A DNA stretch of 59,262 nt, from contig CAMUZU010000011.1 of NCBI GenBank assembly GCA_947165295.1, forward strand, positions 1-59,262, given 5' to 3'. The notes beneath the pieces are model-generated. The model was not told the origin of the DNA, did not search any database, and worked only from the letters and a program-made list of their open reading frames with translations. The translations under genes and the position numbers were made by a program. Shown piece by piece: positions 7,070-56,842 of the stretch (position 1 is its first letter; each line of letters begins with the position of its first letter). The DNA is from an uncultured Selenomonadales bacterium (lineage in GTDB: Bacteria > Bacillota > Negativicutes > Selenomonadales > Selenomonadaceae).

Positions 7070-7214
7070 CAAAAAAAAATCCCGCCACGTGTGTATCGTG
7101 TTACTTTCTTTCGGCGCGAAACATCCTGTATCGTGCGCGAACGGCGGCCGACGTCCTGTCGGCCGGATTTACGCGTTGCAGTTCACGTCGCAAAAAAAAA
7201 TCCCGCCACGTGTG
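7070..7214. mobile_element. Three-hairpin repeat, copy a (degenerate), between 24-bp direct repeats
   Basis: A 97-bp segment (7094-7190) lies between perfect 24-bp direct repeats at 7070-7093 and 7191-7214. The right repeat is part of the intrinsic terminator of the zinc-ribbon gene, so a terminator half has been duplicated. Inside are only one arm of hairpin 3 (GTTACTTTCTTT at 7100), a decayed hairpin 2 (CATCCTGTATC), and an intact hairpin 1 at 7146-7164 (GGCCGAC-N5-GTCGGCC). It appears to be an old or truncated copy of the family. Confidence 0.75.
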
Positions 7215-7219
7215 ACGGG
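7192..7219 (-). terminator. Rho-independent terminator of the zinc-ribbon gene
   Basis: On the minus strand a CCCGTCAC/GTGGCGGG stem with a two-base loop is followed by nine T. Starts 14 bases after the stop codon. Its distal half and T-run recur as a direct repeat at 7070-7093. Confidence 0.85.
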
Positions 7220-7232
7220 AAAAAGTTTTTGT

Positions 7233-7691
7233 TCAGTTACGAGCGTCGTCAATTTCGTTGTACATTGTGTTCGAGTAAGTTTTCTGTGCACCGCCGCGAA
7301 TCGTCGTGGCGGCTTGTTCGTTTTTGCGTGCACGCATCCTCATCGAGTCGGCGAACTTTTTCGCCTCCTGCTTGAGCTTGACGGCGCACTCTTGGCAATA
7401 AGCACCGTTCTTGATGAGTTTGCCGCATCTGCCGCAAGGATACTGGACTTCGAGACCGCTTGCGTTTTCAAACTCGCCTTGCCGAACCATGCGCCAGATT
7501 AATTTGTCGGGCACGCCGGTTTCGTCAATGAGTTGCCGAATTGTAATGCCGGGATGGTCGCGCACGTAATCTTTAACTTGCTCTTCCATCGTCTGTTCCA
7601 TGACGCGGCATTCGGGACAGATCGTTTCGCCAATGACGGACAAGAAAATTTTATGACAACGCACGCAGTTTTTCATGTTGAGTTTCGCCAC
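7233..7691 (-). CDS. Flagellar-region zinc-ribbon protein (YvyF/TIGR03826-like)
   Basis: 152 residues. N-terminal CVRC...CPEC and C-terminal CGRC...CQEC pairs suggest two zinc ribbons around a helix-turn-helix-like middle (GITIRQLIDETGVPDKLIWRM). This matches the YvyF-type protein usually next to flgM in Firmicutes flagellar regions; its role is not established, and no flgM is nearby here. GTG start with GGGGTG eight bases upstream. Confidence 0.8.
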   Translation of the reverse strand: MAKLNMKNCVRCHKIFLSVIGETICPECRVMEQTMEEQVKDYVRDHPGITIRQLIDETGVPDKLIWRMVRQGEFENASGLEVQYPCGRCGKLIKNGAYCQECAVKLKQEAKKFADSMRMRARKNEQAATTIRGGAQKTYSNTMYNEIDDARN

Positions 7692-7782
7692 AGAAATTTC
7701 ACCCCGCAGTTCGCTGTAAATCTTTCGGTATGTTCAACGGGCATGAAGAAATTTCCTGCCGCCCGACGCGCTTTAAGCAAGT

Positions 7783-8694
7783 TTAAATTTTCAGCTCGCG
7801 ATTGAACTCGTCGACTTCTTCGGGCGTGAACTCCTCGCGCATGGACTTCCAACGGTCGTGCAACCAAAACCACTCGTCGGGGAATTTGCGCACGTGTTGT
7901 TCAATCAGCGTCGCAAGCTTCTGAGTCATCGATTTAATGTCGGCGTGCTTGTCGGCTGAGCGTTCGACAAAAAGCGGCGGCGAAACTTCAAGCGTGTGTG
8001 TGCCGTCGGAATTCTTGTGCATGAACGCGGGGAAAATCGGCACTTTGCGGAAACGCGACATACTCGCCGCGCCCGTCACAAAGTTTGTCGCTTGGTTGAA
8101 AAATTTCACGACAACGCCGTCCGTGCGCCCGACGTCCTGATCCATAATCAAGCCGATAAAATGTCCCGCGTCGAGCAACTTGTACATTTCGCGCACGTCG
8201 TTGCGGTAAGTTATGTGCATGCCGACAAGTTCGCGGTATTCGCAGATGAATTTGTCCGCGCCTTCGGAACGTTGCTTTTTGGCGACGCCGACGAGCGGAA
8301 TGCCGTATTGCGCGAAGGCACCGCCCATGAGTTCCCAGTTGTCGCTGTGACCGGTGGCAATGACTCCGCCGCGTCCCGTCGAGGCAATGTAATTCGTCAA
8401 GTGTTCGAGCCCGACAATTTTAACGTAACTGCGCATGTCGGGTTTGATTTTCGGCAAGGCAAGCACTTCCATAAAAATCGAGCCGAGCTGAACGGAACCT
8501 GCCTTCGCGATACGTGCGGCTTCGTCGTCGTCAACATTCAAACAACGGCGTGCGTTGTCGACGGCGATTCGCTTGCGTTTCGGCGGCAAAATGAGCCACA
8601 ACAAACTTGCCAAAGCGCGCCCGACCGTCAACGAAAATTTCAGCGGCAACAGACAGACCACGCGGCTCAACAGTTTCAAAAGTTTGTATTCGAT
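7783..8694 (-). CDS. LpxL/HtrB-type lipid A acyltransferase
   Basis: About 303 residues. The HSDNWE motif (the HX4D/E active site of lysophospholipid/Kdo2-lipid A acyltransferases) and the later FPAFMH and WFWLHDRWK blocks place it in the LpxL/LpxM family, which adds secondary acyl chains to lipid A at the inner membrane. Implies an outer membrane. Start is unusual: a strong GAGGAGG has no ATG, GTG or TTG in frame behind it, but an ATC nine bases later would give the expected N-terminus EYKLLKLLSRVVCLLP. The nearest ordinary start (TTG at 8715) has no ribosome site. Follows the rhodanese gene closely. Confidence 0.88.
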   Translation of the reverse strand: MEYKLLKLLSRVVCLLPLKFSLTVGRALASLLWLILPPKRKRIAVDNARRCLNVDDDEAARIAKAGSVQLGSIFMEVLALPKIKPDMRSYVKIVGLEHLTNYIASTGRGGVIATGHSDNWELMGGAFAQYGIPLVGVAKKQRSEGADKFICEYRELVGMHITYRNDVREMYKLLDAGHFIGLIMDQDVGRTDGVVVKFFNQATNFVTGAASMSRFRKVPIFPAFMHKNSDGTHTLEVSPPLFVERSADKHADIKSMTQKLATLIEQHVRKFPDEWFWLHDRWKSMREEFTPEEVDEFNRELKI

Positions 8695-8716
8695 TGACGT
8701 TGACCTCCTCGGCAAA

Positions 8717-9109
8717 TTATTTGACTTCGGTACCTTCGACTGCGCCCGTCCAATCGACAAGCCCGCCGAATTCGTAAACGCGTTTGTAACCGTGCTCAAG
8801 CAGAATTTCGGCGGAATCTTCGGCGCGGCGTCCCGTCCAACAGTAAATCAAAATCGTGGCGTCCTTGTCGGGCAACTTGCTGAAATCACCTGCGCGCAGA
8901 TTGTCAATCGGCACGAGCAAAGCGTTCGGCAGGTGACGTTTGTCGAATTCTTCTTTCGTGCGCACGTCCAAAACAATCGCGTCGGGGTTCGACTTCATGA
9001 TTCGCACGGCGTCTTTCTGCGTGATGTGAATGTCGTCCTTGCCGCAAGCCGAAAATAAAATCGCGACGATAACCAAAACTGCAACTGAACAACCGCGTAA
9101 CCATTGCAA
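8717..9109 (-). CDS. Rhodanese-domain lipoprotein
   Basis: 130 residues. Start chosen at TTG with GGAG nine bases upstream, which yields a lipoprotein signal (QWLRG, hydrophobic core, lipobox LFSAC-G); any longer reading would run into the repeat at 9156-9258. One rhodanese domain with the active-site loop CWTGRR and DVRTKEEFD. Single-domain rhodaneses handle sulfane sulfur; as a lipoprotein it would act outside the cytoplasmic membrane. Probably co-transcribed with the acyltransferase. Confidence 0.85.
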   Translation of the reverse strand: MQWLRGCSVAVLVIVAILFSACGKDDIHITQKDAVRIMKSNPDAIVLDVRTKEEFDKRHLPNALLVPIDNLRAGDFSKLPDKDATILIYCWTGRRAEDSAEILLEHGYKRVYEFGGLVDWTGAVEGTEVK

Positions 9110-9155
9110 AATTATCAGCTCCAAAAATTTGACTGCCGCAAGTGAAAATCGAAAT

Positions 9156-9258
9156 CCGGCCGTCATGGATGACGGCCGCTCCGCTTGCGCGTGATACACG
9201 ATGTATCACAGCAAGCGCAGTTTCTTTGGTTACTTTCTTTGCTGCCAAAGAAAGTAAC
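9156..9258 (+). repeat. Three-hairpin repeat, copy b
   Basis: Hairpin 1 at 9158-9177 (GGCCGTCAT/ATGACGGCC), hairpin 2 at 9182-9217 (CGCTTGC and GTGATACA paired with TGTATCAC and GCAAGCG), hairpin 3 at 9229-9258 (GTTACTTTCTTTG-CTGC-CAAAGAAAGTAAC). Read on the minus strand, hairpin 3 starts two bases after the permease-kinase stop codon. It lies between that gene and the rhodanese gene. Confidence 0.9.
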
Positions 9259-9260
9259 GT

Positions 9261-12188
9261 TCAGCGCAAAACCTCCGTGAGTGTTTCAATCATCTTTTGA
9301 ATGTCGAGCGGCTTGGCAATGTGCCCGTCCATGCCCGCATCTTTGGCGGCCTGAATGTCTTCGGTGAAGGCGTTGGCGGTCATTGCGATAATCGGAATTC
9401 GCGCAAGTTTCGGGTCGGCAAGCGCACGGATTTTCGCCGTCGCTTCGTAGCCGTTCATGACGGGCATTTGAACATCCATCAACACCGCGTCGAAATCGCC
9501 GGGCTTCGACGCCGCAACTTTTTCGTAAGCAATCTTGCCGTTTTCGGCCGTGTCCAAACCGAAACCGAATTCCGTCAAAATCAGCGACGCAATTTCGCGG
9601 TTGACTTCGTTGTCTTCGACGAGCAGGAGTTTGACTTTGCTGAAATCAATTTCGCGCTTCGTATCGTCAATCTGCGCGGCGTCGGAAACTTCGTCGGCTT
9701 CGTCGACAATCGGGAAATTCACGCGCACGATAAATTCCGTGCCCTTGCCGAGTTCGGTCTCAACGTCAATCGTGCCGCCCATAAGTTCGACGATGCTTTT
9801 TGTAATCGACATGCCCAAGCCCGTGCCTTGAATGTTGCTGACGGTTCGGTCGCGTTCGTAAGCGGCAAAAACTTTCGCGGCGAATTCGGGCGTCATGCCC
9901 ATGCCGGTATCTTTCACGCGAAGTTCGTAGCTGCCCGTCGTTTCGTTGCCGCCGACTTGTTCAAGCGTGACGGTGACCGAGCCGCCTTCGGGCGTGAATT
10001 TAAACGCATTGCTAATCAGGTTCAGCAAGACGCGGTTAAGTCGCGGCGTGTCGCACATGACGGTTTTGTTCATGACGCGTCCGACGTTGACGACAAACTT
10101 CAAGCCTTTCGTCTCCATTTGCGTAACAAACAAGTCGCGCACTTCGTTGACGGCCTTGACGAGGTTTGACTTCTGCGGGTCGAGTTCCATTTTGCCCGAC
10201 TCAATGCGGCTCATGTCGAGTATGTCGTTAATCAATTCGAGCAGGTGACCGCTTGACGCTTCGATTTTGTCGAGATAATCGCGGGTCGTCGGCGAAAGGT
10301 CGTCTTCCTTCTTGATAAGATTCGTGTAACCGATAATCGCGTTCATTGGCGTGCGGATGTCGTGGCTCATGTTCGACAGGAAAGTTGACTTCGCTTTGTT
10401 CGAGCGTTCGGCCTGGACTTTCTGAACTTCCATGAGTTTTTCGCGCTTCATCATCAAGTTGTAGATGTTGAACATGATAAACAGCGCAATCATAATCAAG
10501 CCCATTTGCATGAGGTTATGCCGCGTCAACGAGTCGCTGACGTGTTCCATTTGATTTTGCAGGTAGTATTGCGAATCGGCTTTTTCAATTTCGGTCGGAG
10601 GCATGCCGTGTTCGTTAAGTTCTTCGGTGTAATATTCGCTCAAGTTGCTCAAGACGGCTTTGGCACTGTCGCTGGTCGCCTCGCGCACCCACAGCATCGA
10701 CGTAAAAAATATCAGGAACAGCAACGCAATCCACGAGATTGTTGACTGCCCGAAGCGTCGAAATTCCGTGTCGCGCTGAAAGATGTAGCGGAAGAACGCG
10801 AATCCGAGTATGCTCCACAGAATCAAAATCAGGTAACTTTCGGTCGTCATTGCGCTGACCGTCCAGGCGTTGGGCACCATGAAGTACACGAAAAAAATCA
10901 GCGACACGACGCAACCGACAATGCCCGTCACCTGCGGCAGGCCGAGTCCGAGTTTGCGGGCGACGATTAACGCGACGAGTGATGTGTACGTGTAATCGAT
11001 TGTCGCGCCGATTGTGTTCACGTCGATAATCCACGCGATAGCCGTTCGTCCGAGAAACGGTATCGGCAAACTCAACAGCATGATAAAAAGTACGGCGTTG
11101 CGCGGCGTGTGATTTTCGCTCAACTTGCCGAACCACGCGGGAAGTAAATCGTCACGCGTCAAAGCGTAAATCAGTCGGCTTGCGGCAATGTAATTTCCGA
11201 CAAGTCCGGTTATGACGCCCGACACGCACGTTGCCGCCAAAATCACAAGACCCGTGTCGCCCAAAAAATATTTCACGGAATAGAACGTCGGCAAGCCCGC
11301 AAGTCCTTCGTAGCTGCCGAGGTTGTTGATGTATTCGCCCCACGTCGCGCAAGGCGGAGGCAACGTCGCAACCGCCAACAACGTCAAAAACGTGTAAGCC
11401 AACGCCGCCGCAACTACCGCGCAGAAAAGTATCGCGAACGTTTTTTTGACCGAAAACGTGAAACCTTCCGCCGACTGCGAAATTGACTCGAAGCCGACGA
11501 ACGCCCACGGCGCAAGCACGACAATTCCGAAGACCGCCGCAAACGAACTGCCTTCAGCGGGCGGGAAATCGGGCTTTATCGCGAAGATGTCAACGCCGCT
11601 CGACAAAACCGCGCCGATACCAATCAGCACGCCGCCGAACAGAATTATCGCGCAGACCGTTTGAACTCGTGCCGCCAACTTGCCGCCGTACATGCAGACC
11701 GCTCCGAAAATCCACAGCGCGCCCAAACTCAACAGCACTTCGCCAAGGTAAATGTCGTAGCCCGCGATTGTGTAATGGAAGCCGAATTGGAACGTGTCGC
11801 CCAGCAAGTTTCGGAAGATGAGCGGCAAGGCGGTCGCGTTCGCCCAAATTATCGCGATGTAAACCAGAATCAAAAACCACGAACTCAGAAAGCCGTGGTC
11901 GTAGCCCAAAACTTTTTTCGCGTATGAATAAGTGCCGCCCGCGTCGGGGTAGCGATTCATCATGAAGTGATAGTTGTAGCCGATAATCAGCATGATGATT
12001 CCGCCGACAGCCATACCCAGCGCAGTACCGAGAGGGCCGCCAATCGGAAGAAACGTCGTGCCCGGCATGACGAACGCGCCCCAGCCGACTGCGCAACCGA
12101 ATGACAGTGCCCAAACGTTCAGCGGCGACAAATACGGTTTCAACTGTGTGTCCTCTGCTTTGCCCATGAATGAGACCCGAACTCCCAT
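9261..12188 (-). CDS. Amino-acid permease fused to a hybrid histidine kinase and receiver
   Basis: About 975 residues. Residues about 15-440 are an APC-superfamily amino acid transporter (GWGAFVMPG near the start, about 12 membrane segments). Two further membrane segments, an outside loop of about 75 residues and another membrane segment lead to a HisKA domain (SNMSHDIRTPMNAI, phospho-His near 609), an HATPase (LISNAFKFT, DTGMGM, GTGLGMSI) and a receiver with phospho-Asp near 905 (LMDVQMPVMNG). No HPt or output domain is present and no response regulator is adjacent, so its partner is unknown. By analogy with CbrA-type transporter kinases it may sense a transported amino acid. Start ATG; a TTG one codon upstream is possible. 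Confidence 0.9.
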   Translation of the reverse strand: MGVRVSFMGKAEDTQLKPYLSPLNVWALSFGCAVGWGAFVMPGTTFLPIGGPLGTALGMAVGGIIMLIIGYNYHFMMNRYPDAGGTYSYAKKVLGYDHGFLSSWFLILVYIAIIWANATALPLIFRNLLGDTFQFGFHYTIAGYDIYLGEVLLSLGALWIFGAVCMYGGKLAARVQTVCAIILFGGVLIGIGAVLSSGVDIFAIKPDFPPAEGSSFAAVFGIVVLAPWAFVGFESISQSAEGFTFSVKKTFAILFCAVVAAALAYTFLTLLAVATLPPPCATWGEYINNLGSYEGLAGLPTFYSVKYFLGDTGLVILAATCVSGVITGLVGNYIAASRLIYALTRDDLLPAWFGKLSENHTPRNAVLFIMLLSLPIPFLGRTAIAWIIDVNTIGATIDYTYTSLVALIVARKLGLGLPQVTGIVGCVVSLIFFVYFMVPNAWTVSAMTTESYLILILWSILGFAFFRYIFQRDTEFRRFGQSTISWIALLFLIFFTSMLWVREATSDSAKAVLSNLSEYYTEELNEHGMPPTEIEKADSQYYLQNQMEHVSDSLTRHNLMQMGLIMIALFIMFNIYNLMMKREKLMEVQKVQAERSNKAKSTFLSNMSHDIRTPMNAIIGYTNLIKKEDDLSPTTRDYLDKIEASSGHLLELINDILDMSRIESGKMELDPQKSNLVKAVNEVRDLFVTQMETKGLKFVVNVGRVMNKTVMCDTPRLNRVLLNLISNAFKFTPEGGSVTVTLEQVGGNETTGSYELRVKDTGMGMTPEFAAKVFAAYERDRTVSNIQGTGLGMSITKSIVELMGGTIDVETELGKGTEFIVRVNFPIVDEADEVSDAAQIDDTKREIDFSKVKLLLVEDNEVNREIASLILTEFGFGLDTAENGKIAYEKVAASKPGDFDAVLMDVQMPVMNGYEATAKIRALADPKLARIPIIAMTANAFTEDIQAAKDAGMDGHIAKPLDIQKMIETLTEVLR

Positions 12189-16557: not shown

Positions 16558-16663
16558 GTTACTTTCTTTTGGCAGCAAAAGAAAGTAACCAAAGAAAACT
16601 GCGCTTGCTGTGATACATCCTGTATCACGCGCAAGCGGTTTGGCCGTCATCCATGACGGCCGG
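16558..16663 (-). repeat. Three-hairpin repeat, copy c (inverted)
   Basis: Reverse orientation to copy b: hairpin 3 at 16558-16589 (stem GTTACTTTCTTTTG, loop GCAG), hairpin 2 at 16602-16637, hairpin 1 at 16642-16661. Hairpin 3 follows the SpoVB-like stop codon closely, and bases after hairpin 1 (GTTACCGTTGCAG) match those after copies a and f, extending the element. Confidence 0.9.
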
Positions 16664-18741: not shown

Positions 18742-19830
18742 ATGGCTGACGACGACAAGAAACCGTGCGACTTGCAAGCGAACCTGCGGCAGATGATGCA
18801 GACGACAAAGAAGTCCGACCTTGAACAGGCGTTGCAAAAGATGATGCAGACGACGCGCTCAAACGACTTGCAAAACGCCTTCCGAAAGATGATTCACGTG
18901 ACGCGTTCGCTTGACCAGCAGATTGAAGAGCAGCAGAAGGCGCACGAAAAAAATATTGCCGACGCGTTCCAAAAGATGATTCGCGTGACGCATTCGCTTG
19001 AACACGACAGCGAAAACGAAATTGTCAGCTACGAACACGCGGAGCCGTCGCCCGACGAAAAAAAATCCGCTCAACCCGAAAAGAAGCTCGACAAAGTCAA
19101 GAAGAAAGTTCCGCGCAGGATTCGCAGTTTCCCGGCAGCCTTCCGCCGCAACCCGAAAGCCGTCATAAAATATTTTCTCGGCTTGGTGCTCGGTCGCGTG
19201 TTGGCGATTGTGCTGTATGTTTTAATGGCGTTGATTCCCGCGTTGCCGATACCCGACGCCGTCGCGAACATGAGCAAACCGCCCGCGATTTTCGGCACGG
19301 CGTTTAACTCAATGCGAACGTTCTTCACGGATTTAAGCCCGCAAATGATTATGGCGACGGTGACAAGTATCCCGACGGACATAAACAAAATCCTGCAGAA
19401 GGTCGGCGAATTCTTCACGTATTACGCCAAACGTGCGGGCGCGTTCCTCGTGCGGGCGATTCGTCACCCGAAGCTTGCCTTCGACGACGTGCGGCGGACA
19501 ATTCGCGAAAAAATGCCGCTGGTGATTCGGCTGGCTCGCGGGGCGTTCTCGGTGCTGTTCTCGTTCCTGCTGATAAAGCTTGCGATGATTTTCCTGTTGC
19601 CGCTGTTCGGCGGTATCGCGTTGACCGTGCTGGGCATCAAAGTTTCGATAATCCTGTTCGTCGTGGCGCGCATGATTGCTGATAAAGTCGGCGAACTTAT
19701 CGGCAAGTACGTCTTCAACGGCGGTTTGAAATGCGTCAACATTGCCAAGACGATTCGCGAAGCGCAAGTTGTCAAAGCCGTCGGCGATTACCTCAAAGAG
19801 TGGCTCAATCAAGCGACGAACAAAAAATAA
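18742..19830 (+). CDS. Unrecognised membrane protein with N-terminal 20-residue repeats
   Basis: 362 residues; I do not recognise the family. Residues about 9-90 contain four imperfect amphipathic repeats with the pattern L-x-x-A-F-x-K-M-I/M-x-x-T-R/H-S (QKMMQTTRS, RKMIHVTRS, QKMIRVTHS). A charged lysine-rich linker leads to several hydrophobic segments (about 150-175 and 270-325). AGGAGGTG lies seven bases before the ATG. The last ten codons, stop and terminator are duplicated at 20422-20485. Confidence 0.75.
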   Translation: MADDDKKPCDLQANLRQMMQTTKKSDLEQALQKMMQTTRSNDLQNAFRKMIHVTRSLDQQIEEQQKAHEKNIADAFQKMIRVTHSLEHDSENEIVSYEHAEPSPDEKKSAQPEKKLDKVKKKVPRRIRSFPAAFRRNPKAVIKYFLGLVLGRVLAIVLYVLMALIPALPIPDAVANMSKPPAIFGTAFNSMRTFFTDLSPQMIMATVTSIPTDINKILQKVGEFFTYYAKRAGAFLVRAIRHPKLAFDDVRRTIREKMPLVIRLARGAFSVLFSFLLIKLAMIFLLPLFGGIALTVLGIKVSIILFVVARMIADKVGELIGKYVFNGGLKCVNIAKTIREAQVVKAVGDYLKEWLNQATNKK

Positions 19831-19858
19831 CCGCCCGAACATCTCGAACGGTTTTTTT
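19831..19858 (+). terminator. Terminator after the repeat-containing membrane protein
   Basis: Imperfect CCG-CCCGA/TCG-CGG stem followed by seven T, directly after the TAA. A second copy of this terminator lies 620 bases downstream. Confidence 0.7.
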
Positions 19859-20440
19859 CTTGACGGCTTGCAGTTCGTCAACTCAATCGCGAACATCAAC
19901 GGTGACCGTTCGGCTCGTCGACAAGCTCGGCTTGCAACTCGTCAACTTAACCGTGAACGTCGGCGGTGACCGTTCAACTCGTCGACAGGCGCGGCTTGCA
20001 GTTCGTCAACTCAATCGCGAACATCAACGGCGACCGCTCAACTCGTCGACAGGCGCGGCTTGCAGTTCGTCAACTCAACCGTGAACGTCGGCGGTGACCG
20101 TTCGGTTCATCGACAAGCTCGGCTTGCAGTTCACGCAACTCAATCGCGAACATCAACGGCGACCGCTCAACTCGTCGACAGGCGCGGCTTGCAGTTCGTC
20201 AACTCAACCGTGAACGTCGGCGGTGACCGTTCGGTTCATCGACAAGCTCGGCTTGCAGTTCACGCAACTCAATCGCGAACATCAACGGCGACCGCTCAAC
20301 TCGTCGACAGGCGCGGCTTGCAGTTCGTCAACTCAACCGTGAACGTCGGCGGTGACCGTTCGGTTCATCGACAAGCTCGGCTTGCAACTCGGCAACTCAA
20401 CCGTGAACGTCGGCGACTGCAGGCTCAATCAAGCTACAAA

Positions 20441-20478
20441 CAAAAAATAACCGCCCGAACATCTCGGACGGTTTTTTT
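20441..20478. terminator. Second (bidirectional) copy of the terminator
   Basis: CCG-CCCGA/TCGG-CGG stem with T-runs on both strands (AAAAAA on the left, seven T on the right). On the minus strand it terminates the small membrane gene whose stop is 10 bases away. The array therefore splits what was probably one shared terminator between convergent genes. Confidence 0.75.
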
Positions 20479-21490: not shown

Positions 21491-22105
21491 TTGACCAGAA
21501 TTTTTTTGATACGCCACGGCGAAACCGAGTGGAATGCGTCGGGCAGACTGCAGGGCAACTCCAACGTTCAGCTTTCGATGGTCGGGCTTCATCAGGCGCG
21601 GCTTTTGGCAATGCACGCACCCTTCCCGACGGCGGAAGCGATTTACTCAAGCGACTTGATTCGTGCGAAGGCGACGGCTGACGTTTTGGCGGCGCAGTTC
21701 AACTTGAAAGTTCAACTTGTGCCCGAACTGCGCGAGACAAGTTTCGGCGACTGGGAAGGTCACGCCATCAAAGATTTGGCAGAAGAGTCCGCCGACGACT
21801 TTGAAAAGTTTTTCGTCGACCCGGAAGTTTGTCGCCCGCCGCACGGTGAAACTTTCGCCGAATGTCAAACGCGTGTGGTCAACGCCGTCCGAAAAATTAT
21901 CGCCGACAACGCGGACAACAGCCGAATTATCGTCGTGTCGCACGGCGCGGCAATTCGACTTTTGCTGTGCGCGGCGTTGGGCATGCCGATTCGCAAGATG
22001 TGGGCAATCGCGCAGTTCAACATGGCATTGAACGTCCTTCGCGTCGACGACGGCTCAATCACCGTCGAACTTATCAACAGCACGCAACACTTGTACAGAT
22101 TTTGA
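21491..22105 (+). CDS. Histidine phosphatase family protein (phosphoglycerate-mutase-like)
   Basis: 204 residues. IFLIRHGETEWN at residues 3-14 holds the catalytic His; SHGAAIR near 160 has the second. Could be a CobC-type alpha-ribazole phosphatase or a GpmB-like broad phosphatase; nothing nearby decides. TTG start chosen for GGGAGG eight bases upstream. The 3' end (last 25 codons) and the start of the next gene are tandemly duplicated with a 180-bp offset, leaving a second copy of the C-terminal coding end downstream. Confidence 0.88.
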   Translation: MTRIFLIRHGETEWNASGRLQGNSNVQLSMVGLHQARLLAMHAPFPTAEAIYSSDLIRAKATADVLAAQFNLKVQLVPELRETSFGDWEGHAIKDLAEESADDFEKFFVDPEVCRPPHGETFAECQTRVVNAVRKIIADNADNSRIIVVSHGAAIRLLLCAALGMPIRKMWAIAQFNMALNVLRVDDGSITVELINSTQHLYRF

Positions 22106-22380
22106 CGGAGGCGACCTGTCATGAAAAAACTTTTCGCGCTTGCGACGGCTTTGCTGTTCGTGATGTTGTCGACGGCTCAAGCGGAGATTTATCCGCACGG
22201 CATGACCTTGAACGTCCTTCGCGTCGACGACGGCTCCGTTACCGTCGAACTTATCAACAGCACGCAACACCTGTACAGATTTTGACGGAGGCGACCTGTC
22301 ATGAAAAATTTTTTCGCGCTTGTGACGGCTCTGCTGTTCGTGATGTTGTCGACGGCTCAAGCTGAAATTTACCCGCACAT
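22027..22380 (+). repeat. 180-bp tandem duplication across a gene boundary
   Basis: Positions about 22027-22200 and 22207-22380 are near-identical at an offset of exactly 180 bases. Each copy holds the phosphatase C-terminal codons, its stop, a GGAGG site and the signal-peptide codons of the next gene. No foreign sequence is inserted. The offset is a multiple of three, so reading frames stay aligned. Confidence 0.92.
22121..22285 (+). CDS. Chimeric 54-residue secreted ORF created by the duplication
   Basis: ATG with GGAGG eight bases upstream. The first 21 residues are the signal peptide of the following gene (MKKLFALATALL, then ML-STAQA) and EIYPH, joined in frame to the last 25 residues of the phosphatase (LNVLRVDDGS...TQHLYRF) and its stop. 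If expressed, a 33-residue exported peptide would result. It may be a neutral by-product; the substitutions in the second copy (SV for SI) leave the frame open. Confidence 0.5.
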   Translation: MKKLFALATALLFVMLSTAQAEIYPHGMTLNVLRVDDGSVTVELINSTQHLYRF

Positions 22381-24493: not shown

Positions 24494-24642
24494 GCCGACA
24501 ACGCAAGTGCAACACCGGCCGACAGGACGTCGGTCGCCGCCCTGCGCGTGATACAGGATGTATCACAGCAGGCCGGTTTTCTTTGGTTACTTTCTTTGTC
24601 CGCACAAAGAAAGTAACACAACACACGCGGCGGGGATTTTTT
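24472..24642. mobile_element. Three-hairpin repeat, copy d, between 19-bp direct repeats
   Basis: Direct repeats at 24472-24490 and 24624-24642 consist of terminator sequence, so the terminator half has been duplicated around the insert. Hairpin 1 is at 24517-24535 (GGCCGAC-N5-GTCGGTC), hairpin 2 at 24541-24572 (CCTGC and GTGATACA with TGTATCAC and GCAGG), hairpin 3 at 24586-24617 (stem GTTACTTTCTTTGT, loop CCGC). Stems differ from copy b in paired positions. It lies just before the ilvD promoter. Confidence 0.88.
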
Positions 24643-29470: not shown

Positions 29471-30252
29471 ACATCCTGCAAGAAATTGCCGAAACCGCCC
29501 GAATTCGCGTCGCGGGTTACAAAGCCGTCATCTCCGCCGACGAAGTCAAAGATTGGGCGTCGAGTTTGCCCCGTAAAAATTTTCCGTTTGAAGTCGCGCT
29601 CAAGAAACCGTGGCTGTCGTTCATCTGCGAATGCAAGAAGGCTTCACCGTCGAAAGGTTTGATTGCCGAAAATTTCCCGCACGTCGACATTGCCAAAGCT
29701 TACGAGTCGGCGGGCGCGGACGCAATTTCAGTTTTGACGGAGCCGAATTACTTTTTGGGCGACGACAAGTTTCTCGCCGAAATTGCCGACGAAGTTTCAA
29801 TTCCGTGTCTGCGGAAAGATTTCGTCGTCGATGAGTACATGATTTATCAGGCGAAAATTTTGGGCGCGGACGCCGTGCTGTTAATCTGCGCGATTCTTGA
29901 CGACGTTCAGCTGAAAAGTTTTATCGCGACGTGCGACGAACTCGGTTTGAGCGCGCTGGTCGAGGCTCACGACGCGGACGAAATTCGACGGGCTTTGAAC
30001 TGCGGGGCGCGTGTTATCGGCGTCAACAACCGCAACTTGAAAAATTTTTCCGTCGACATGGACAACGCCGCCAAACTTCGCGAACTCGTTCCGCCCGAAA
30101 AAATTTTCGTCTCGGAAAGCGGCGTGCAAACTTCCAACGACGTGAAAAAAATTCGTGCGCTCGGTGCCGACGCGGTGTTAATCGGCGAAGTTTTGATGCG
30201 TGCCGTCGACAAAAAATCCAAGCTTGACGAATTGCGCGGTGACGGCTCATGA
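29467..30252 (+). CDS. trpC: Indole-3-glycerol-phosphate synthase TrpC
   Basis: 261 residues. [13 protein letters not shown] near 53-65 contains the catalytic Lys region; [28 protein letters not shown] and GVNNRNL are family blocks, and SESGV near the end binds phosphate. Closes the indole ring from CdRP. Overlaps trpD and trpF by four bases each (ATGA), indicating translational coupling. Confidence 0.96.
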
Positions 30253-30848
30253 CCCGCATTAAATTTTGCGGACTGCGCACGCTCGACGACATTGCCGCCG
30301 CGAATCAACTGTTGCCCGAATACGTCGGCTTCGTCTTCGCGCCGAAAAGTAAACGTTGCGTCACGGTCGACACTGCCGAAAAACTTCGCGCTTCACTGTC
30401 GAAGAAAATTCAAGCGGTTGGCGTCTTCGTCAACGAAAACTTTCAAACCGTCGGCGAACTTTTGAACGCGGGCATAATCGACGCGGCTCAACTTCACGGC
30501 GACGAAACCGAAGATTATATCCGAAGTTTGCGAACCGTCACCGACAAGCCGATAATCAAGGCGTTTCGCGTCGACAGGCTTGCGGACACGTCGGCGGATT
30601 TTGTTTTGATTGACGCGGGAGCGGGCGACGGTCGAACTTTCGATTGGCGGCTGTTGACGAACTTCAAGCGCGAATTTTTTCTTGCGGGCGGACTCACTGT
30701 CGACAACGTGGCGGAGGCGATTGAATTTTTGCAACCGTTCGCCGTCGACGTAAGCAGCGGCATTGAAACCGACGGTCGCAAAGACTTCGACAAGATGAAC
30801 GCCTTCGCAAACGTTGTTCGCAAACGAAAACCCGGCCGTCATGGATGA
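30249..30848 (+). CDS. trpF: Phosphoribosylanthranilate isomerase TrpF
   Basis: 199 residues. [11 protein letters not shown] at 4-14 has the catalytic Cys, QLHGDE and LIDAG follow, and [10 protein letters not shown] binds phosphate. Amadori rearrangement of PRA to CdRP. The last five residues (PGRHG) and the stop codon are encoded by hairpin 1 of three-hairpin repeat copy e; the family would be expected to end near VVRKRK. The fold should be unaffected. Confidence 0.95.
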
Positions 30849-30935
30849 CGGCCGCAATCGCTTGCGCGTGATACATGACGTATCACAGCAAGCGCAGTTT
30901 CTTTGGTTACTTTCTTTGCTGCCAAAGAAAGTAAC
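30832..30935 (+). repeat. Three-hairpin repeat, copy e, inside the trp operon
   Basis: Hairpin 1 at 30834-30853 overlaps the trpF stop codon, hairpin 2 at 30859-30894 (GTGATACA-TGACG-TATCAC variant loop), hairpin 3 at 30906-30935. Lies between trpF and trpB. Flanks show no clear direct repeat. Confidence 0.9.
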
Positions 30936-32934: not shown

Positions 32935-33040
32935 GTTACTTTCTTTTGACAGCAAAAGAAAGTAACCAAAGAAAACTGCGCTTGCTGTGATACATCCTGT
33001 ATCACGCGCAAGCGGAATGGCCGTCATCCATGACGGCCGG
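32935..33040 (-). repeat. Three-hairpin repeat, copy f (inverted)
   Basis: Hairpin 3 at 32935-32966 (loop ACAG), hairpin 2 at 32979-33014, hairpin 1 at 33019-33038. Same orientation as copy c and, like it, hairpin 3 directly follows a stop codon. Downstream bases AATTTACCGTTGCGC match those after copy a and c. Confidence 0.9.
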
Positions 33041-45776: not shown

Positions 45777-45943
45777 CCGGCCGTCACGGATGACGGCCGC
45801 GCCCGCAGTTGAAACAGGATGTTTCACCTGCGGGCACGAGTGATTCGCGGTACTTGCAACGTTTGAATTACGAACGAATAACGCCCCCGCGAGGTGCCGT
45901 TTCTTTTTGCTACTTTTTCTTTGGGCAAGCAAAGAAAAAGTAG
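45777..45943 (+). repeat. Three-hairpin repeat, copy g (divergent, expanded)
   Basis: Hairpin 1 at 45779-45798 (GGCCGTCA/TGACGGCC), hairpin 2 at 45801-45835 with rewritten but still paired stems (CCCGCAG/CTGCGGG and TGAAACA/TGTTTCA), hairpin 3 at 45910-45943 (CTACTTTTTCTTTG/CAAAGAAAAAGTAG). Seventy-four bases separate hairpins 2 and 3, against about 11 in other copies; that insert holds no gene I can see. Confidence 0.85.
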
Positions 45944-47123: not shown

Positions 47124-48713
47124 TCAAGTGGTTTGAGAAATTTTTTCAAGAAAATTTTTCGCGGACTTGAAGCCGTCGAGAGCCGAACTGGTAATGCCGC
47201 CCGAATAGCCCGCGCCTTCGCCAATCGGATAAAGCCCCGCCGCGTTGATTGACTGCCGCGTAACCTCGTCGCGAAGAATCCGCACGGGTGAACTCGTCCG
47301 TGATTCGACAGCCGTCAAGGGCACGTCCGCCGCCGCAAAGCCCGGAATTTTTTTGTCGAAGAACTTCAGCGCGTCAATCAGCGTCAAGCACACGTCACGC
47401 GGAAAAATTTCGCGCAAGTCGGCAGGCGTGAATCCGATCGGGTAAGTCGGCGTCGTCAAAAAATCTTTCGAGCCGACACGTCCGTTAATGAAATCTCCGA
47501 CGCTTTGCACGGGCGCACGATAATTTTTCCCGCCGTGAACAAAAGCCGCACGCTCAAGTTCACGCTGAAAACGCACGCCGCTTAAAACGTCGTCGCCGAA
47601 ATCTTTCTTGCCGACAGTGACGACCAAAGCTCCGTTGGCAACGCCGCTGTCACGCGCAAAGTTGCTCATGCCGTTCGTGACGACGCCGCCGACTTCCGAC
47701 GAAGCCGCGACGACCAGACCGCCGGGGCACATGCAGAAACTGTACGCGCCGCGCCCGCGAATTTCGTCCTTGAACGTCAACATGTAATCGGCGACGGGAA
47801 GTTTCGCGTTGCGGAAATCTTCGCCGTATTGAGCGCGGTTGATGAATTCCTGCGGGTGTTCAATCCTCACGCCGACGGCAAAATCTTTGGCAGTCATTGC
47901 GACGCCGCGACGATTTAACATTTCATATGTGTCACGCGCCGAATGTCCGACGGCAAGAAAAATCGCGTCCGCCGAAAAAGTTTCGGAGCCGTTGACGACG
48001 ACGCCCGCGACTTTGCCGCCGCGAATGTCAATGTACGTAACTTGCGCGTTGAAAAAAATTTTCCCGCCGCGTGACAGAATTTCTCGCCGAATGTTTTTGA
48101 CGACCGTACGCAACTTGTCCGTGCCGACGTGCGGTTTTTGTTCGCGAAGAATTTCTTCGGGCGCGCCTGCCTCGACGAAAGTTTTCAGCACGAAGTCAAC
48201 CGCCGGGTCGTTGAGCCGCGTCATCAACTTGCCGTCTGAAAAAGTGCCCGCGCCGCCTTCGCCGAATTGAACGTTGGAATTCTCGTCGAGTGAGCCGCCG
48301 TTGAAAAATTTTTCGACAGCCGCAACTCGCGAATCGGTATCGCCGCCGCGTTCAAAAACAATCGGCTCGACACCACAGCGCGCCAACGTCAAAGCCGCGA
48401 ACATGCCCGCCGCTCCGAAGCCGACGACAATCGGGTTATGTTCAGGGACGCGTTCAACCGTCGCGAAAGTTTCGGTGACTTTGTCGGGCACGGGACGAAC
48501 GCTTTTGTCGCGAACTTTGCCGCGAATTTCCGCGTCGACAACGTAAACGAATTTGACGGGCGCGCCGCGAAAACGTCGGGCGTCCACGGCTCGGCGAACA
48601 ATCTGCGCGGACAAAATCTTTTCGACGGGAACTTTCAAACGTTCGGCGACAAGAGCGGCAAGCGGGCGTTCGTCGTCAAGCGCGGCGGTCAAGTTTGCAA
48701 TGCGAATCTTCAT
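47124..48713 (-). CDS. FAD-dependent dehydrogenase (COG2509 type)
   Basis: 529 residues. After an N-terminal roughly 95-residue domain, PIVVGFGAAGMFAALTLARCG near residue 105 is the dinucleotide-binding fold (core GFGAAGMFAAL); FGEGGAGTFSDGKLMTR and CMCPGGLVVAASS near 350 and GEGAGYSGGITSSA at the end are typical of this uncharacterised family. Substrate unknown. ATG chosen for GGAGG seven bases upstream. Upstream array carries terminators, so it is probably transcribed apart from the genes before it. Confidence 0.85.
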   Translation of the reverse strand: MKIRIANLTAALDDERPLAALVAERLKVPVEKILSAQIVRRAVDARRFRGAPVKFVYVVDAEIRGKVRDKSVRPVPDKVTETFATVERVPEHNPIVVGFGAAGMFAALTLARCGVEPIVFERGGDTDSRVAAVEKFFNGGSLDENSNVQFGEGGAGTFSDGKLMTRLNDPAVDFVLKTFVEAGAPEEILREQKPHVGTDKLRTVVKNIRREILSRGGKIFFNAQVTYIDIRGGKVAGVVVNGSETFSADAIFLAVGHSARDTYEMLNRRGVAMTAKDFAVGVRIEHPQEFINRAQYGEDFRNAKLPVADYMLTFKDEIRGRGAYSFCMCPGGLVVAASSEVGGVVTNGMSNFARDSGVANGALVVTVGKKDFGDDVLSGVRFQRELERAAFVHGGKNYRAPVQSVGDFINGRVGSKDFLTTPTYPIGFTPADLREIFPRDVCLTLIDALKFFDKKIPGFAAADVPLTAVESRTSSPVRILRDEVTRQSINAAGLYPIGEGAGYSGGITSSALDGFKSAKNFLEKISQTT

Positions 48714-48725
48714 GCGGTTACCTCC

Positions 48726-48752
48726 AAAAAAATTGCCCGTCAAGCGACAGGC
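48726..48752 (-). terminator. Terminator within the 103-bp array (distal copy)
   Basis: GCCTGTC-GCTT-GACGGGC stem followed by AA and T-run on the minus strand. Variants of the stem recur at each unit boundary (48839, 48942, 49040). Confidence 0.8.
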
Positions 48753-49063
48753 AGAAAAGTTTCAATTCGCGACGAATCGGTTGCGGTTGTCGACAATGCC
48801 GCGTCGCGAAAACTGTTTGGTTACTTTTTAAAAGTAACCCCGTCAACCGACAGGCAAAAAAGTTTCAATTCGCGGCGAATCGGTTGCGGTTGTCGACAAC
48901 ACCGCGTCGCGACAACTATTTGGTTACTTTTTAAAAGTAACCCCGTCAACCGACAGGCAGAAAAGTTTCAATTCGCGGCGAATCGGTTGCGGTTGTCGAC
49001 AACGCCGCGTCGACTGTTTGGTTACTTTTTAAAAGTAACCCCGTCAAGCGACAGGCAGAAAAA
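48736..49063. repeat. Tandem array of 103-bp units carrying terminator and palindromes
   Basis: Units start at 48736, 48839, 48942 (103, 103 and 98 bp) with a partial unit at 49040. Each holds the terminator stem (CCCGTC/GACAGG), a long stem TTCGCGAC/GTCGCGAA (perfect in unit 1), the palindrome TTGTCGACAA, and GGTTACTTTT/AAAAGTAACC, which recalls hairpin 3 of the dispersed family. It fills the gap between the gene at 49067 and the FAD dehydrogenase; no gene is seen. Confidence 0.9.
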
Positions 49064-49066
49064 TTT

Positions 49067-49696
49067 TTAATCGCCCAACACGGCACGAATCGCGGCAACT
49101 TCAGGCGCGGTGAAAAGTCCTTCGGGCGACTCGCGAATCATGATGTCGTGCAGTTTGAGTTTTAGCGGTTCAAGTTCGGCAATCGATTTGGCGGCACCGA
49201 CCGACAAGCTTATCGTTCGCGTCTGCGCGTCGACGTAATCTTTCGTCTTGCGGATAATTTCGTCGACCTGCGCACGGCTTTGTTCGTCAAGCGACTGCGG
49301 CACCGTCAGCCCGTAAATTTTTATCTGCTCGTCAAGCGACTCCTGCTCCAGCTCGTGCAACCGCTGTTGAAGTGCCTCCGCGTTGAAGCTGTCCGCGTCC
49401 ACCGACTCCAAGCCGTCAACGATGTTGTGATACGTCTGCCAGTTGCGGTCAAGGCTGTCGATGTCGCGCTGATACGAAGCGTACCAGTCACCGAAAATTT
49501 TTTGCCGCGCCTGCAGTTCTTCACGTTGCGCACGCGAAATTTCTTCCTGTTGAGCTTGCCTGTTGGTGACGAATGCGCTTACGCCGAAGACAACGATCAA
49601 CACCGCGCAGATTATCGCGAAGTTTTTGCGCGTCGGCAGGAATTTGTACAGCACGACCAAAGCGACCGCCGCCGCGACCGTCAGCAGGTAAATCAT
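49067..49696 (-). CDS. Membrane-anchored coiled-coil protein of unknown function
   Basis: 209 residues, not recognised. Two hydrophobic segments (about 2-19 and 27-45) are followed by a charged, glutamine-rich helical region (QQEEISRAQREELQARQ, LQQRLHELEQESL) that probably forms a coiled coil. Start overlaps the flavodoxin-like stop by four bases (ATGA), so the two are coupled. The array directly after its stop carries its terminators. Confidence 0.7.
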   Translation of the reverse strand: MIYLLTVAAAVALVVLYKFLPTRKNFAIICAVLIVVFGVSAFVTNRQAQQEEISRAQREELQARQKIFGDWYASYQRDIDSLDRNWQTYHNIVDGLESVDADSFNAEALQQRLHELEQESLDEQIKIYGLTVPQSLDEQSRAQVDEIIRKTKDYVDAQTRTISLSVGAAKSIAELEPLKLKLHDIMIRESPEGLFTAPEVAAIRAVLGD

Positions 49697-52103: not shown

Positions 52104-52121
52104 TTTCGAGGTGTAATCATT

Positions 52122-52571: not shown

Positions 52572-52598
52572 TTTTTTTCGCCGTTGCCTGAAAGCTGT

Positions 52599-52627
52599 TT
52601 GGAAATTGCCTTGCGACGTGCTATAAT
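52599..52627 (+). promoter_or_regulatory. Internal promoter before fliE
   Basis: TTGGAA, 17-base spacer, TATAAT with TGC directly before the -10; 45 bases upstream of fliE. Confidence 0.75.
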
Positions 52628-52672
52628 CACTAAATCGAAACTTCAGCGGTTGACGAAAGGGAAGGTGACGAG

Positions 52673-52975: not shown

Positions 52976-53025
52976 CGCCCGACACTTGATACTTTAATTC
53001 GGACGGTTCGAAAGGACTGAGTTTA

Positions 53026-54660: not shown

Positions 54661-54733
54661 CATTTCTGCGGTTGACAGTCGGTGACAGATTCGCCGACCG
54701 CCAATCGCTTTTCTTTTGAACGGAGGAATTCAC

Positions 54734-55774
54734 ATGCCCGCAGCAGCAGCAGCACCCGACATGTATGCCGAACCTAAGCCCATGACTTCACGCGAAAAAG
54801 CGGCGATTCTTTTTATCGCGCTGGGCGGCGATTATGCGGCAAAAATCTTCGAGCACATGGACGACGACGAAATCGAAACCATTACGCTTGAAATCGCCAA
54901 CAACAAACAGGTCAGCGCCGAAAAGAAAGCAATGGTTATCAGCGAATTCTATCAGCTGATGATGGCAAACGACTACATTTCCACCGGCGGACTTGAATAC
55001 GCGCAGAACGTCCTTGAAAAAGCTTTGGGCGCCGATAAAGCAATGGACATCCTCAACCGCTTGACGACAAGCCTGCAAGTGCGCCCATTCGAGTTCCTTC
55101 GCAAGACCGACCCCGCGCAGCTTTTGAACTTCCTGCAGAACGAACACCCGCAGACAATCGCGCTGGTTATGGCGTATCTGGAACCCGACCAAGCGGCAAT
55201 TATCATGAGCGGCCTGTCAATGGACTCGCAAGCCGACGTTGCCAAACGCATCGCAATGATGGACAGGACAAGCCCCGACGTTATCCGCGAAATCGAACGC
55301 GTGCTTGAAAAGAAACTGTCCTCCATGATGACGCAGGACTTCACCACGGCGGGCGGCGTCCCCGCAATCGTCGAAGTCTTGAACCGCGTCGACAGAACGA
55401 CAGAGCGTGCGATTATCGAGTCAATGGAAGTCGACAGCCCCGAACTCGCCGAAGAAATCAAGAAACTTATGTTCGTCTTCGAAGATATCGTCATGTTGGA
55501 CGACCGTTCGTTGCAGTTGGTTTTGCGCGACATCGACACGAAAGACCTTTCGCTTGCAATGAAGGCAACACCGCAGGAAGTTGCCGAAAAGATTTACAAG
55601 AACATGTCCAAACGCGCCGCCGACATGCTCCGCGAAGAACTCGAATACATGGGTCCCGTCAAGATTCGCGACGTCGAAGAAGCGCAACAGAAAGTTGTCA
55701 ATCGCATTCGCGACCTGGAAGAAAAAGGCGAAATCGTCGTTGCTCGCGGTCAAGGCGACGAAATGCTTGTTTAA
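54734..55774 (+). CDS. fliG: Flagellar motor switch protein FliG
   Basis: 346 residues. REKAAILFIALGGDYAAKIF near 20 (core KAAILFIALGGD), the middle EHPQTIALVMAYLEP with EHPQ motif, and the C-terminal MFVFEDIVMLDDRSLQLVLR torque domain (core FEDIVMLDDRS). Alanine-rich N-terminus after the start, which follows GGAGGAA. Connects FliF to FliM and the stator. Confidence 0.96.
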   Translation: MPAAAAAPDMYAEPKPMTSREKAAILFIALGGDYAAKIFEHMDDDEIETITLEIANNKQVSAEKKAMVISEFYQLMMANDYISTGGLEYAQNVLEKALGADKAMDILNRLTTSLQVRPFEFLRKTDPAQLLNFLQNEHPQTIALVMAYLEPDQAAIIMSGLSMDSQADVAKRIAMMDRTSPDVIREIERVLEKKLSSMMTQDFTTAGGVPAIVEVLNRVDRTTERAIIESMEVDSPELAEEIKKLMFVFEDIVMLDDRSLQLVLRDIDTKDLSLAMKATPQEVAEKIYKNMSKRAADMLREELEYMGPVKIRDVEEAQQKVVNRIRDLEEKGEIVVARGQGDEMLV

Positions 55775-55815
55775 TTTGCGTGACAGTTTTTCATTGCCTG
55801 CGGGAGGTGAATTGA

Positions 55816-56718
55816 TTGTTCCACCAACACAAAAACATCGTGCGTTACATGACGGTCGGTCAGCCCGTGTTAATCGGTGCCAAACCCGAAGAAGACGAGC
55901 CTGAAGTCGAAGCCGAATCCGACGAATCCGACGAAGCTCAAGAAGAGCCCGAAGCCGAACCGCCGATACCGCCCGAAATTCTCGAACGAGTTTACGAGGA
56001 AGTCGAAGAGATCGAACGCAAGTCACTGCTCCTCGACGCGAAGATACAAGCCGCCGAAGCAACTCAAGCCGAAGCCGACGCGCTTAAAGCTCAAGCCGAA
56101 GAATTCAAACGTCAAGCCGAAGAACTCAAAGCCGACGCCGCCAAAATCGTCGACGACACCAAACGCGAAGCCGAAGAACTTTTGGAACGCGTGCACAAGG
56201 AAGGATACGACGCGGGCTACGAAGAAGGCAAGCAGGACGGCATCAAAGACGGCAAAGAGCACATCGAAGAAGAACTTGCCGACATCGTTCGCCAAGCCAA
56301 CGACAAAGCTCAAAAAACTATTCGCGACGCCAAAGAGCAGACCGCCGAATACTTCATTCGCGCCGAAGACGACATTGTTGCCGTCGTCATGATGGCAGTC
56401 GAAAAAATTTTGCCGCAACATTTTCTTGACGTGCCGCAGACCGTGTTGCCCGTCGTGCGTGAAGCAATTCGTCACGTGCGCGACCAAAAAGAAATCAAAG
56501 TTCACGTTGACCCCGACAGCTACGATTTGGTTTTAATGGCGCGTTCGGAGTTTCAATCAATGTTGACCGACGGCACGGCGATTATCGAAGTCGTGAGCGA
56601 CGAAGCGTTGAAGCCGGGCGACTGCGTTATCGAGACACCCAACGGCGGAGTCGACGCACGGTTGTCAACTCAGCTCGCCCTGCTGAAAACTGCCGTCGAA
56701 AGCGTGCTGAACAATTAA
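55816..56718 (+). CDS. fliH: Flagellar assembly protein FliH
   Basis: 300 residues. A very acidic N-terminal part, a long Ala/Glu/Lys-rich coiled coil (about 55-145) and GYDAGYEEGKQDGIKDGKE, the FliH GxxxG-like run (core GYDAGYEEGKQDG), followed by the conserved C-terminal domain (VREAIRHVRDQKEIKVHVDP core). Regulates the export ATPase FliI. TTG start with GGGAGGTG upstream. fliI does not follow; the operon stops here at a repeat element. Confidence 0.9.
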   Translation: MFHQHKNIVRYMTVGQPVLIGAKPEEDEPEVEAESDESDEAQEEPEAEPPIPPEILERVYEEVEEIERKSLLLDAKIQAAEATQAEADALKAQAEEFKRQAEELKADAAKIVDDTKREAEELLERVHKEGYDAGYEEGKQDGIKDGKEHIEEELADIVRQANDKAQKTIRDAKEQTAEYFIRAEDDIVAVVMMAVEKILPQHFLDVPQTVLPVVREAIRHVRDQKEIKVHVDPDSYDLVLMARSEFQSMLTDGTAIIEVVSDEALKPGDCVIETPNGGVDARLSTQLALLKTAVESVLNN

Positions 56719-56737
56719 CGACCCGCAATGTCGCCGA

Positions 56738-56842
56738 CCGGCCGTCATGGATGACGGCCGCAACCGCTTGCGCGTGATACACGATGTATCACAGCAAGCG
56801 CGTCTTTCTTTGCTACTTTCTTTCCACGCGGAAAGAAAGTAG
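56738..56842 (+). repeat. Three-hairpin repeat, copy h, at the end of the flagellar operon
   Basis: Hairpin 1 at 56740-56759, hairpin 2 at 56765-56800, hairpin 3 at 56813-56842 with paired changes (CTACTTTCTTTCC/GGAAAGAAAGTAG). Lies 21 bases after fliH, where fliI would be expected, and directly before the leuC leader array. No intrinsic terminator for the flagellar operon is seen. Confidence 0.9.

Follow-up and report, generated by a model that had tools for sequence, protein, structure and literature searches.

What kind of element recurs, in both orientations, between the genes of a single bacterial contig, and what shape does it keep there? The contig is a stretch of 59,262 nucleotides (nt) from an uncultured Selenomonadales bacterium (GenBank assembly GCA_947165295.1, contig CAMUZU010000011.1), analyzed at its full length and called the window below, in which a first-pass annotation had described eight intergenic copies of a repeat built from three hairpins. 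Using a covariance model made from six of the window copies (R1), we recovered the element at all eight places, with six copies complete, one carrying a stretched spacer and one collapsed; the only two further matches in the window, both weak, were the opposite strand of known copies. Read with hairpin 3 first, the element opens with the hairpin 3 stem (S1; GTTACTTTCTTT-loop-AAAGAAAGTAAC), which is followed by a tail of purines, CAAAGAAA. A short segment then leads to hairpin 2, which contains an internal loop, and hairpin 1 comes last. Our favored reading, which we hold to be probable though far from certain, is that of a non-autonomous mobile DNA repeat, with a lifestyle like that of miniature inverted-repeat transposable elements (MITEs) or repetitive extragenic palindromes (REPs), that ends in a pseudoknot-locked intrastrand triplex.

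The predicted triplex core and its loop pseudoknot

Hairpin 3 is predicted to be the core of a larger motif, in which a purine strand in the flank mirrors its purine arm, the arrangement of an intrastrand triplex. This core has the form TACTTTCTTT..AAAGAAAGTA..CAAAGAAA, is A/T-rich and has a mostly conserved TAC/GTA base; by a sequence test it presents the order of an intrastrand triplex of the BoxC/PIT kind, namely a pyrimidine stem, a loop, a purine stem, a short loop and a second purine stem matching the same arm. We found the length of the A-run in the tail to equal that of the A-run in S1 for runs of 3, 4, 5 and 2 in 196, 32, 7 and 2 distinct cases, respectively, and the 45777 copy in the window has a T-run of 5 in S1 and an A-run of 5 in the tail. 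Substitutions in arm and tail occur in step (AGAG/GAGA, GAGA/AGAG, GAAA/AAAG, AAGG/GGAA), with two copies in genome G345 in which arm and tail are both all-A, and for arms beginning GAAAAGAAAGAA and AAAAAGGAAA nine of nine tail bases match by script, the match reaching 12 and 10 bases by eye. Of 280 distinct site types, 264 had a third strand that mirrors the S1 arm exactly; many of the standard sites came from a search requiring CAAAGAAA, so that the non-standard arms are the cleaner test, and among these 56 of 59 were mirrored exactly. When viral contigs were searched with the hairpin alone, each of the 10 distinct run-of-4 hairpins printed had a run-of-4 tail on one side and not on the other; for run-of-3 hairpins, 16 of the 21 printed had a run-of-3 tail. 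A viral-contig set of 45 sites, whose pattern demanded a purine tail and which partly overlaps with the 280 site types, gave 37 mirror matches, compared to a mean of 10 and a maximum of 20 with permuted tails (1000 permutations).

The loop of S1 is complementary to the bases directly past the tail, with 4-6 base pairs (bp) where the pairing is well formed. Over 75 distinct sites on named contigs, the mean Watson-Crick run was 4.32, versus 3.01 +/- 0.09 for shuffled sequences (maximum of 500: 3.29), and runs of at least 4 occurred in 54 of the 75; since the pattern behind these sites required the tail CAAAGAAA, they test the pseudoknot and not the third strand. The viral set gave a run of 3.73 versus 2.88 +/- 0.13 shuffled. 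In 29 ungapped sequences, taken from 48 sites (the 19 omitted were Selenomonad or Selenomonad-like, and their register is shifted by one base), the covariation of S1 and the loop-flank pairing was 0.261 versus 0.080 +/- 0.013 shuffled, four of five pseudoknot pairs were altered on both sides, and 77.9% of the cells of these five pairs were paired. By sequence, the loop is predicted to pair outside its hairpin with compensatory changes, as in an H-type pseudoknot, and the third strand and the loop pairing both covary across phyla.

The three hairpins had been taken as independent units with freely varying loops, a picture that has to be revised, as hairpin 3 belongs to the predicted triplex and pseudoknot, its loop covaries with the flanking segment, and the loop of hairpin 1 is nearly invariant. 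The hairpin 1 loop reads ANGGAY in 92 of 99 copies of the own genome and in 40 of 43 copies of relatives (hairpin 1 was unparsed in the other 3); among the 40 parsed relative copies, 29 distinct 5' arms were found, with ANGGAY in 40/40. These counts, as well as the wobble counts for hairpins 1 and 2 below, use the best 99 of 123 own and 43 of 75 relative model matches, the remainder being mostly opposite-strand.

Covariation of the stems themselves, noted at first pass from differences between the window copies, held up in an alignment of 25 copies, with a three-helix score of 0.494 versus 0.160 +/- 0.014 shuffled and 0.078-0.105 when slid, and with 17 of 26 pairs altered on both sides versus 12.9 +/- 1.2 shuffled; further pair types were less clear (35 versus 31.7 shuffled, 37/500). 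This alignment comprised the window reference and 24 relatives of our choosing (L060, L061 and L063-L067 were omitted for insertions, truncations or weak matches), and its structure was hand-drawn on the same alignment, with the hairpin 2 lower stem uncounted. Folding z-scores ranged from -7.5 to -9.5 for six strands (three window copies and one relative), with 0/200 shuffles as good in each case.

Copy number, spread and turnover

In the own genome (2.49 Mb, 80% complete), R1 detected at least 150 copies, in line with the earlier proposal of a small non-autonomous repeat selected for its structure; as only 150 of 1352 candidates were scored, all 150 of which matched, further copies may exist. 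The copies were 91-111 nt long, 148 of the 150 being at least 102 nt, and were split 77 versus 73 between the strands. Patterns for single hairpins gave 67 genome matches for hairpin 2 (at most 3 mismatches) versus 0 for a reversed-pattern control and 92 exact genome sites for hairpin 3 versus 0 for the control. A stricter search covered 60 genomes, the own one among them, and gave matches in 30 at E 0.001: the own genome itself, 28 of the 36 other members of the genus and, weakly, 1 of 23 others in the class; named contigs matching R1 include Quinella and other Selenomonadaceae. Copies are closely alike within the own genome, and sequences diverge between genomes. An Rfam check, as the first pass had proposed, yielded nothing above the gathering cut-off in the window except one tRNA located elsewhere than the elements, with a best score of 20.1 bits at the 16558 element versus a cut-off of 35.

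The core extends well beyond the genus. Scanning public genomes, we obtained at least 116 stretches, among the 80 listed of which are stretches from Burkholderiales, Methylococcales, Neisseriales, Pasteurellaceae, Bacteroidota, Spirochaetota, Lentisphaerae, Clostridia and one Moraniibacteriota (Patescibacteria) contig. A looser pattern matched 45 of 48 genomes reached via core loci, with 0 control matches; the highest count, 484 sites over the two strands, came from one Burkholderia genome. All 48 were picked for carrying the core, and the 45/48 hence reflects copy number and not prevalence. Within the own class, the strict pattern occurred in 21 of 300 genomes, 20 of them from one family. In Paraburkholderia and a related Burkholderia, the core lies at both ends of a long inverted repeat of ~560 bp (four loci self-aligned at 75-80%), and a 201-base query with this core matched at least 40 pieces, which came from 7 plasmid records; no annotated gene was present in the two Paraburkholderia stretches looked up, and at seven other loci Rfam gave no core match above cut-off.

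Gene context was derived with our own hexamer gene caller, independently of reference annotation, for 90 elements, 11 overlapping called genes being dropped. Between two called genes without overlap lay 76 of the 90, of which 56 were in co-directional, 16 in convergent and 4 in divergent gaps; all 207 gaps of at least 60 nt (element gaps included) comprised 134, 38 and 35, respectively, divergent gaps thus being avoided (p 0.011). Copies sit directly behind genes: of 42 copies that turn their hairpin 3 side toward the 3' end of a gene, 21 begin no more than 10 nt from the stop codon, and of 46 that do so with the hairpin 1 side, 26 lie within 22 nt, compared to 0/35 (hairpin 3) and 3/32 (hairpin 1) equally close among the sides facing gene starts.

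Presence of the element differs between related genomes. At 6 of 9 comparable sites in G016, the best-matching relative (flank identity ~75-90%), the gap is too short for the element, one further site is shared and two have longer gaps. At L251, five relatives have a distance of -1 to 17 nt between the aligned flanks; in the own genome it is 517 nt, and this stretch holds the element and extra copies of the start of the next gene. Of 89 copies, 12 have direct repeats of at least 14 nt on their two sides, no further than 90 nt away, versus 0.6 expected (20 flank shuffles); leaving out copies with a neighbor closer than 400 nt, such repeats flank 10 of 87, compared to 5 of 272 control positions placed after stop codons with equal gap (Fisher p 0.0005), 3/281 and 7/277 at other gaps and 7/745 at random positions. 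The flanking repeats listed are 13-48 nt long and offset from the element, and some are part of tandem arrays; the 7094 copy is flanked by a 20-nt direct repeat, as read from the sequence, and at L252:2201 a 14-nt stretch that flanks the element is single in the relative, with one difference. A short target duplication abutting the ends was not found in windows of 12 and 20 nt, and the fixed-length duplication expected of a MITE of a DDE insertion sequence was not seen. A weak consensus was seen outside the ends of 90 own copies, GT-rich and close to CGTGTGTTGAAC before S1 and close to ATTTACCGTTGCGG after hairpin 1.

The reading as a mobile repeat draws on pair and third-strand covariation, copy number, presence/absence differences, post-stop position and the excess of flanking direct repeats, all of which are properties of the sequence. 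We suggest that at one end the purine arm would be covered by the third strand and the loop pinned to the flank by the short pseudoknot, while the opposite end would be the hairpin with the nearly fixed ANGGAY loop; the two ends read, by eye, as unlike hairpins. Triplex and pseudoknot would form on single-stranded DNA, e.g., the lagging-strand template, and a trans-acting enzyme, or fork stalling and template switching, would copy the element to new sites, which may duplicate a variable stretch of the target. Repeats that have little else in common carry the triplex core in several phyla, and the mobilizing machinery therefore probably recognizes this core. More tentatively, the pseudoknot-locked single-stranded DNA triplex may be the recognition end of a previously unrecognized class of non-autonomous mobile elements across many phyla, in which lineage-specific hairpins would be set on a common core and moved by an enzyme family yet to be identified.

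Alternatively, the element could be a triplex instability element without a dedicated enzyme, at which replication stalls and template switching or slippage makes, moves and deletes copies together with tandem duplications nearby. The variable length of the flanking repeats fits such a process, as do the L251 insertion, which lies at the same place as three copies of a 173-nt unit, and the lack of an enzyme in the searches for a Y1 transposase and a reverse transcriptase; in the available text of PMC4666352, TM_ECO triplex motifs are reported at unstable loci. Template switching alone, however, poorly explains near-full-length copies (148 of 150 at 102-111 nt) scattered genome-wide, and we regard this explanation as unlikely. 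The 173-nt unit at L251 (~10200-10590) is a single stretch in the five relatives. Tandem duplications of ~64-180 nt, some over a gene start, are also numerous in the window (1-247, 19815-20457, 22021-22378, 48699-49074 and 56877-57209).

Folding strand, candidate enzymes and points of doubt

Which strand would fold bears on whether the element acts as DNA or as RNA. If the hairpin-3-first strand folds, its third strand would give a purine-motif triplex in the layout of TM_ECO; on the other strand a parallel pyrimidine third strand is predicted to lie within the pseudoknot, which is the layout of telomerase-type RNA pseudoknots; the observed covariation is compatible with either. Wobble counts disagree: S2 on the hairpin-1-first strand has 19 G.U versus 11 A.C (17 versus 12 in a stricter count), and hairpins 1 and 2 on the hairpin-3-first strand have 14 G.T versus 11 A.C, and we therefore rejected a strand assignment by wobble as unsettled. 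A conserved G.T at the closing pair of hairpin 1, and one in hairpin 2 as read from the sequence, would favor the hairpin-3-first strand. Stems that are almost free of mismatches, an even orientation (26 co-directional versus 30 anti in co-directional gaps) and no clear strand signature would together favor, in our view, a role at the DNA level.

The first-pass suggestion of an mRNA 3'-end stability element agrees with the location behind stop codons and disagrees with the even orientation and with the stems, which have no clear G.U excess. In its fuller form, this explanation would have a triple-helix pseudoknot at mRNA 3' ends block exonucleases, with hairpin 1 as a protein-binding hairpin of the CsrA/RsmA type, such hairpins carrying ANGGA in the apical loop. 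An ANGGAY loop that stays nearly invariant on varying stems would suit it, as would the telomerase-type geometry of the hairpin-1-first strand; yet orientations are even, G.U pairs are about as frequent as A.C mismatches in near-perfect stems and the strand hints conflict, which makes an RNA role, to our judgment, quite improbable. A search for csrA gave no match in 0.75 Mb of DNA from the genus, a small sample.

REP/REPIN sequences, as described in the available text of PMC3116915, PMC2817692 and PMC3733652, are likewise short, palindromic, intergenic, high-copy repeats thought to be moved in trans, and Y1 transposase domains, the kind found in the RAYT transposases, occur in 11 of 17 motif-rich genomes. 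The absence of a RAYT gene from the window, recorded at first pass, nevertheless extends to the whole 80%-complete own genome, in which the Y1 transposase (PF01797) has no match; it has none in G010, G297, G326, G344 and G353 either, and by regular expression the motif was near none of the 10 loci fetched, out of 38 Y1 matches, in motif-rich genomes. With no RAYT found alongside the element, a classical REP/REPIN moved by a RAYT transposase seems to us highly improbable.

These missing enzymes also weigh against the mobile, triplex-ended repeat that we favor, and several further observations do the same. Reverse transcriptase (PF00078) likewise had no match in the own genome, and by regular expression the motif was near none of 4 reverse transcriptase loci fetched, out of 15 matches, in motif-rich genomes. 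Triplex formation itself is a prediction, and the mirror has gaps: 16 of the 280 site types lack an exact one, comprising both chance wrong-strand matches and real exceptions; single-base departures occur, e.g., in G326, G331, G338 and G364; 5 of the 21 run-of-3 viral hairpins are without a tail; and among seven listed mismatches in A-run length, L133 alone was judged real by eye, the others being wrong-strand or spurious. For the pseudoknot, both-side changes (478/500) and further pair types (97/500) in the 29 sequences were not above shuffles, and by eye the pairing was weak or absent in two Clostridia genomes. In 14 of the 25 aligned copies, the closing pair of hairpin 1 is a G.U, a hint that it is one specific strand that folds. 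Absence from a relative could reflect deletion, and most copies are without flanking repeats, which are of uneven length and stand in a genome where tandem duplications are common. In other taxa, a crude longest-ORF (open reading frame) caller placed 10 elements in divergent, 16 in convergent and 15 in co-directional gaps, with no avoidance of divergent gaps over the 41 usable sites.

Known systems and features of the window

Modular structured intergenic repeats such as ERIC, BOX and bcr1 are known in bacteria, and the element shares with them only this general description. The closest likeness is to intrastrand triplex motifs, which are described in bacteria in the available text of Holder et al. 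2015 (PMC4666352), with BoxC/PIT as a named kind; the earlier statement that no named family is alike thus holds only in part. According to the same source, TM_ECO forms a triplex in vitro, lacks a clear footprint in vivo and is tied to instability. Like BoxC/PIT and TM_ECO, the element has a hairpin purine arm followed by a second purine strand fit for a purine-motif triplex, and it shares with them many copies per genome and the instability between strains that PMC4666352 reports of them. TM_ECO itself (CCCTCNCCCN3-6GGGNGAGGGN3GGGNGAGGG) was rejected as an identification, the core being TACTTTCTTT..AAAGAAAGTA..CAAAGAAA: TM_ECO is G/C-rich with a loop of 3-6 nt, whereas the core here is A/T-rich with a TAC/GTA base and, within the genus, part of a three-hairpin unit. 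Furthermore, TM_ECO is without loop-flank pairing (2.204 versus 2.203 +/- 0.061 shuffled over 142 distinct sites), while the loop of our element pairs with its flank. The G/C-rich TM_ECO motif is frequent in viral and prophage contigs (at least 120 stretches; L374-L453 and others). ENE RNA elements of transposons likewise place a triple helix on a mobile element, and they differ in residing in plant retrotransposon RNA and engaging its poly(A) tail, as the accessible part of PMC12501189 describes.

Neither the A/T-rich core nor the loop pseudoknot was found described among the best matches in open-licence papers, including a search for the motif strings as text, or in Rfam. The words pseudoknot, Burkholderia, AAAGAAA and TTTCTTT are absent from the main text of PMC4666352, and triplex and pseudoknot from the text of PMC3733652; the A/T-rich core may be in the supplement or database of PMC4666352. 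Intrastrand triplex repeats are hence already known, and what appears from the sequence to be newly described is the covarying third strand with an A/T-rich core and the loop pseudoknot. Proposals of natural triplexes in bacterial DNA have so far come from sequence and test-tube work. In the element described here, the predicted third strand follows changes of the duplex, at several positions and in several lengths across phyla, and a covarying pseudoknot holds the loop. Whether an intrastrand triplex has a role in vivo can thereby be tested directly, and the motif offers a handle for finding the machinery behind its spread.

Table 1. Copies of the element in the window and the parts of the reference copy
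Feature	Position	Strand	Basis
Reference full-length copy, hairpin-3-first	16558..16663	+	R1 118.8 bits; fold z -9.3
Hairpin 3 (S1): GTTACTTTCTTT / loop / AAAGAAAGTAAC	16558..16589	+	
Predicted third strand AAAGAAA, mirror of S1 purine arm	16591..16597	+	mirror covariation
Pseudoknot strand GCAG within hairpin 3 loop	16572..16575	+	complementarity in sequence; covariation of pairing at other sites
Pseudoknot partner CTGC, directly past third strand	16599..16602	+	complementarity in sequence; covariation of pairing at other sites
Hairpin 2, asymmetric internal loop	16603..16636	+	
Hairpin 1; apical loop is ANGGAY on opposite strand	16642..16661	+	
Full-length copy; site empty in relative G016	32935..33040	+	R1
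Full-length copy	9156..9258	-	R1
Full-length copy, flanking direct repeat of 19 nt	24515..24617	-	R1
Full-length copy; site empty in G016; overlaps end of ORF 30249-30848	30832..30935	-	R1
Full-length copy	56738..56843	-	R1
45777 copy: hairpins 1 and 2 kept, hairpin 3 (45910-45943) ~60 nt further off	45777..45943	-	
7094 copy, collapsed: hairpin 3 as 5' arm only, fused to hairpin 2	7100..7166	+	

The stop codon of ORF 30249-30848 lies inside the 30832 copy, with an overlap of 17 nt (30832-30848). Within the window, a palindrome GGTTACTTTTTAAAAGTAACC that resembles the base of hairpin 3 occurs in tandem 103-nt units at 48802-49074. At L082, L101, L105, L122 and L137, from Paraburkholderia and Burkholderia, inverted pairs of the core stand ~450-560 bp apart, four of them as the ends of long inverted repeats, and the flanks at L105 and L137 resemble inverted repeats by eye, as if the insertion had been into a hairpin loop. 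At the seven other loci compared with Rfam, the sole weak match near a core was Bp1_684, a Burkholderia small RNA candidate, at L082:6202-6311 (26.6 bits versus a cut-off of 44), which overlaps the outer edge of the core.

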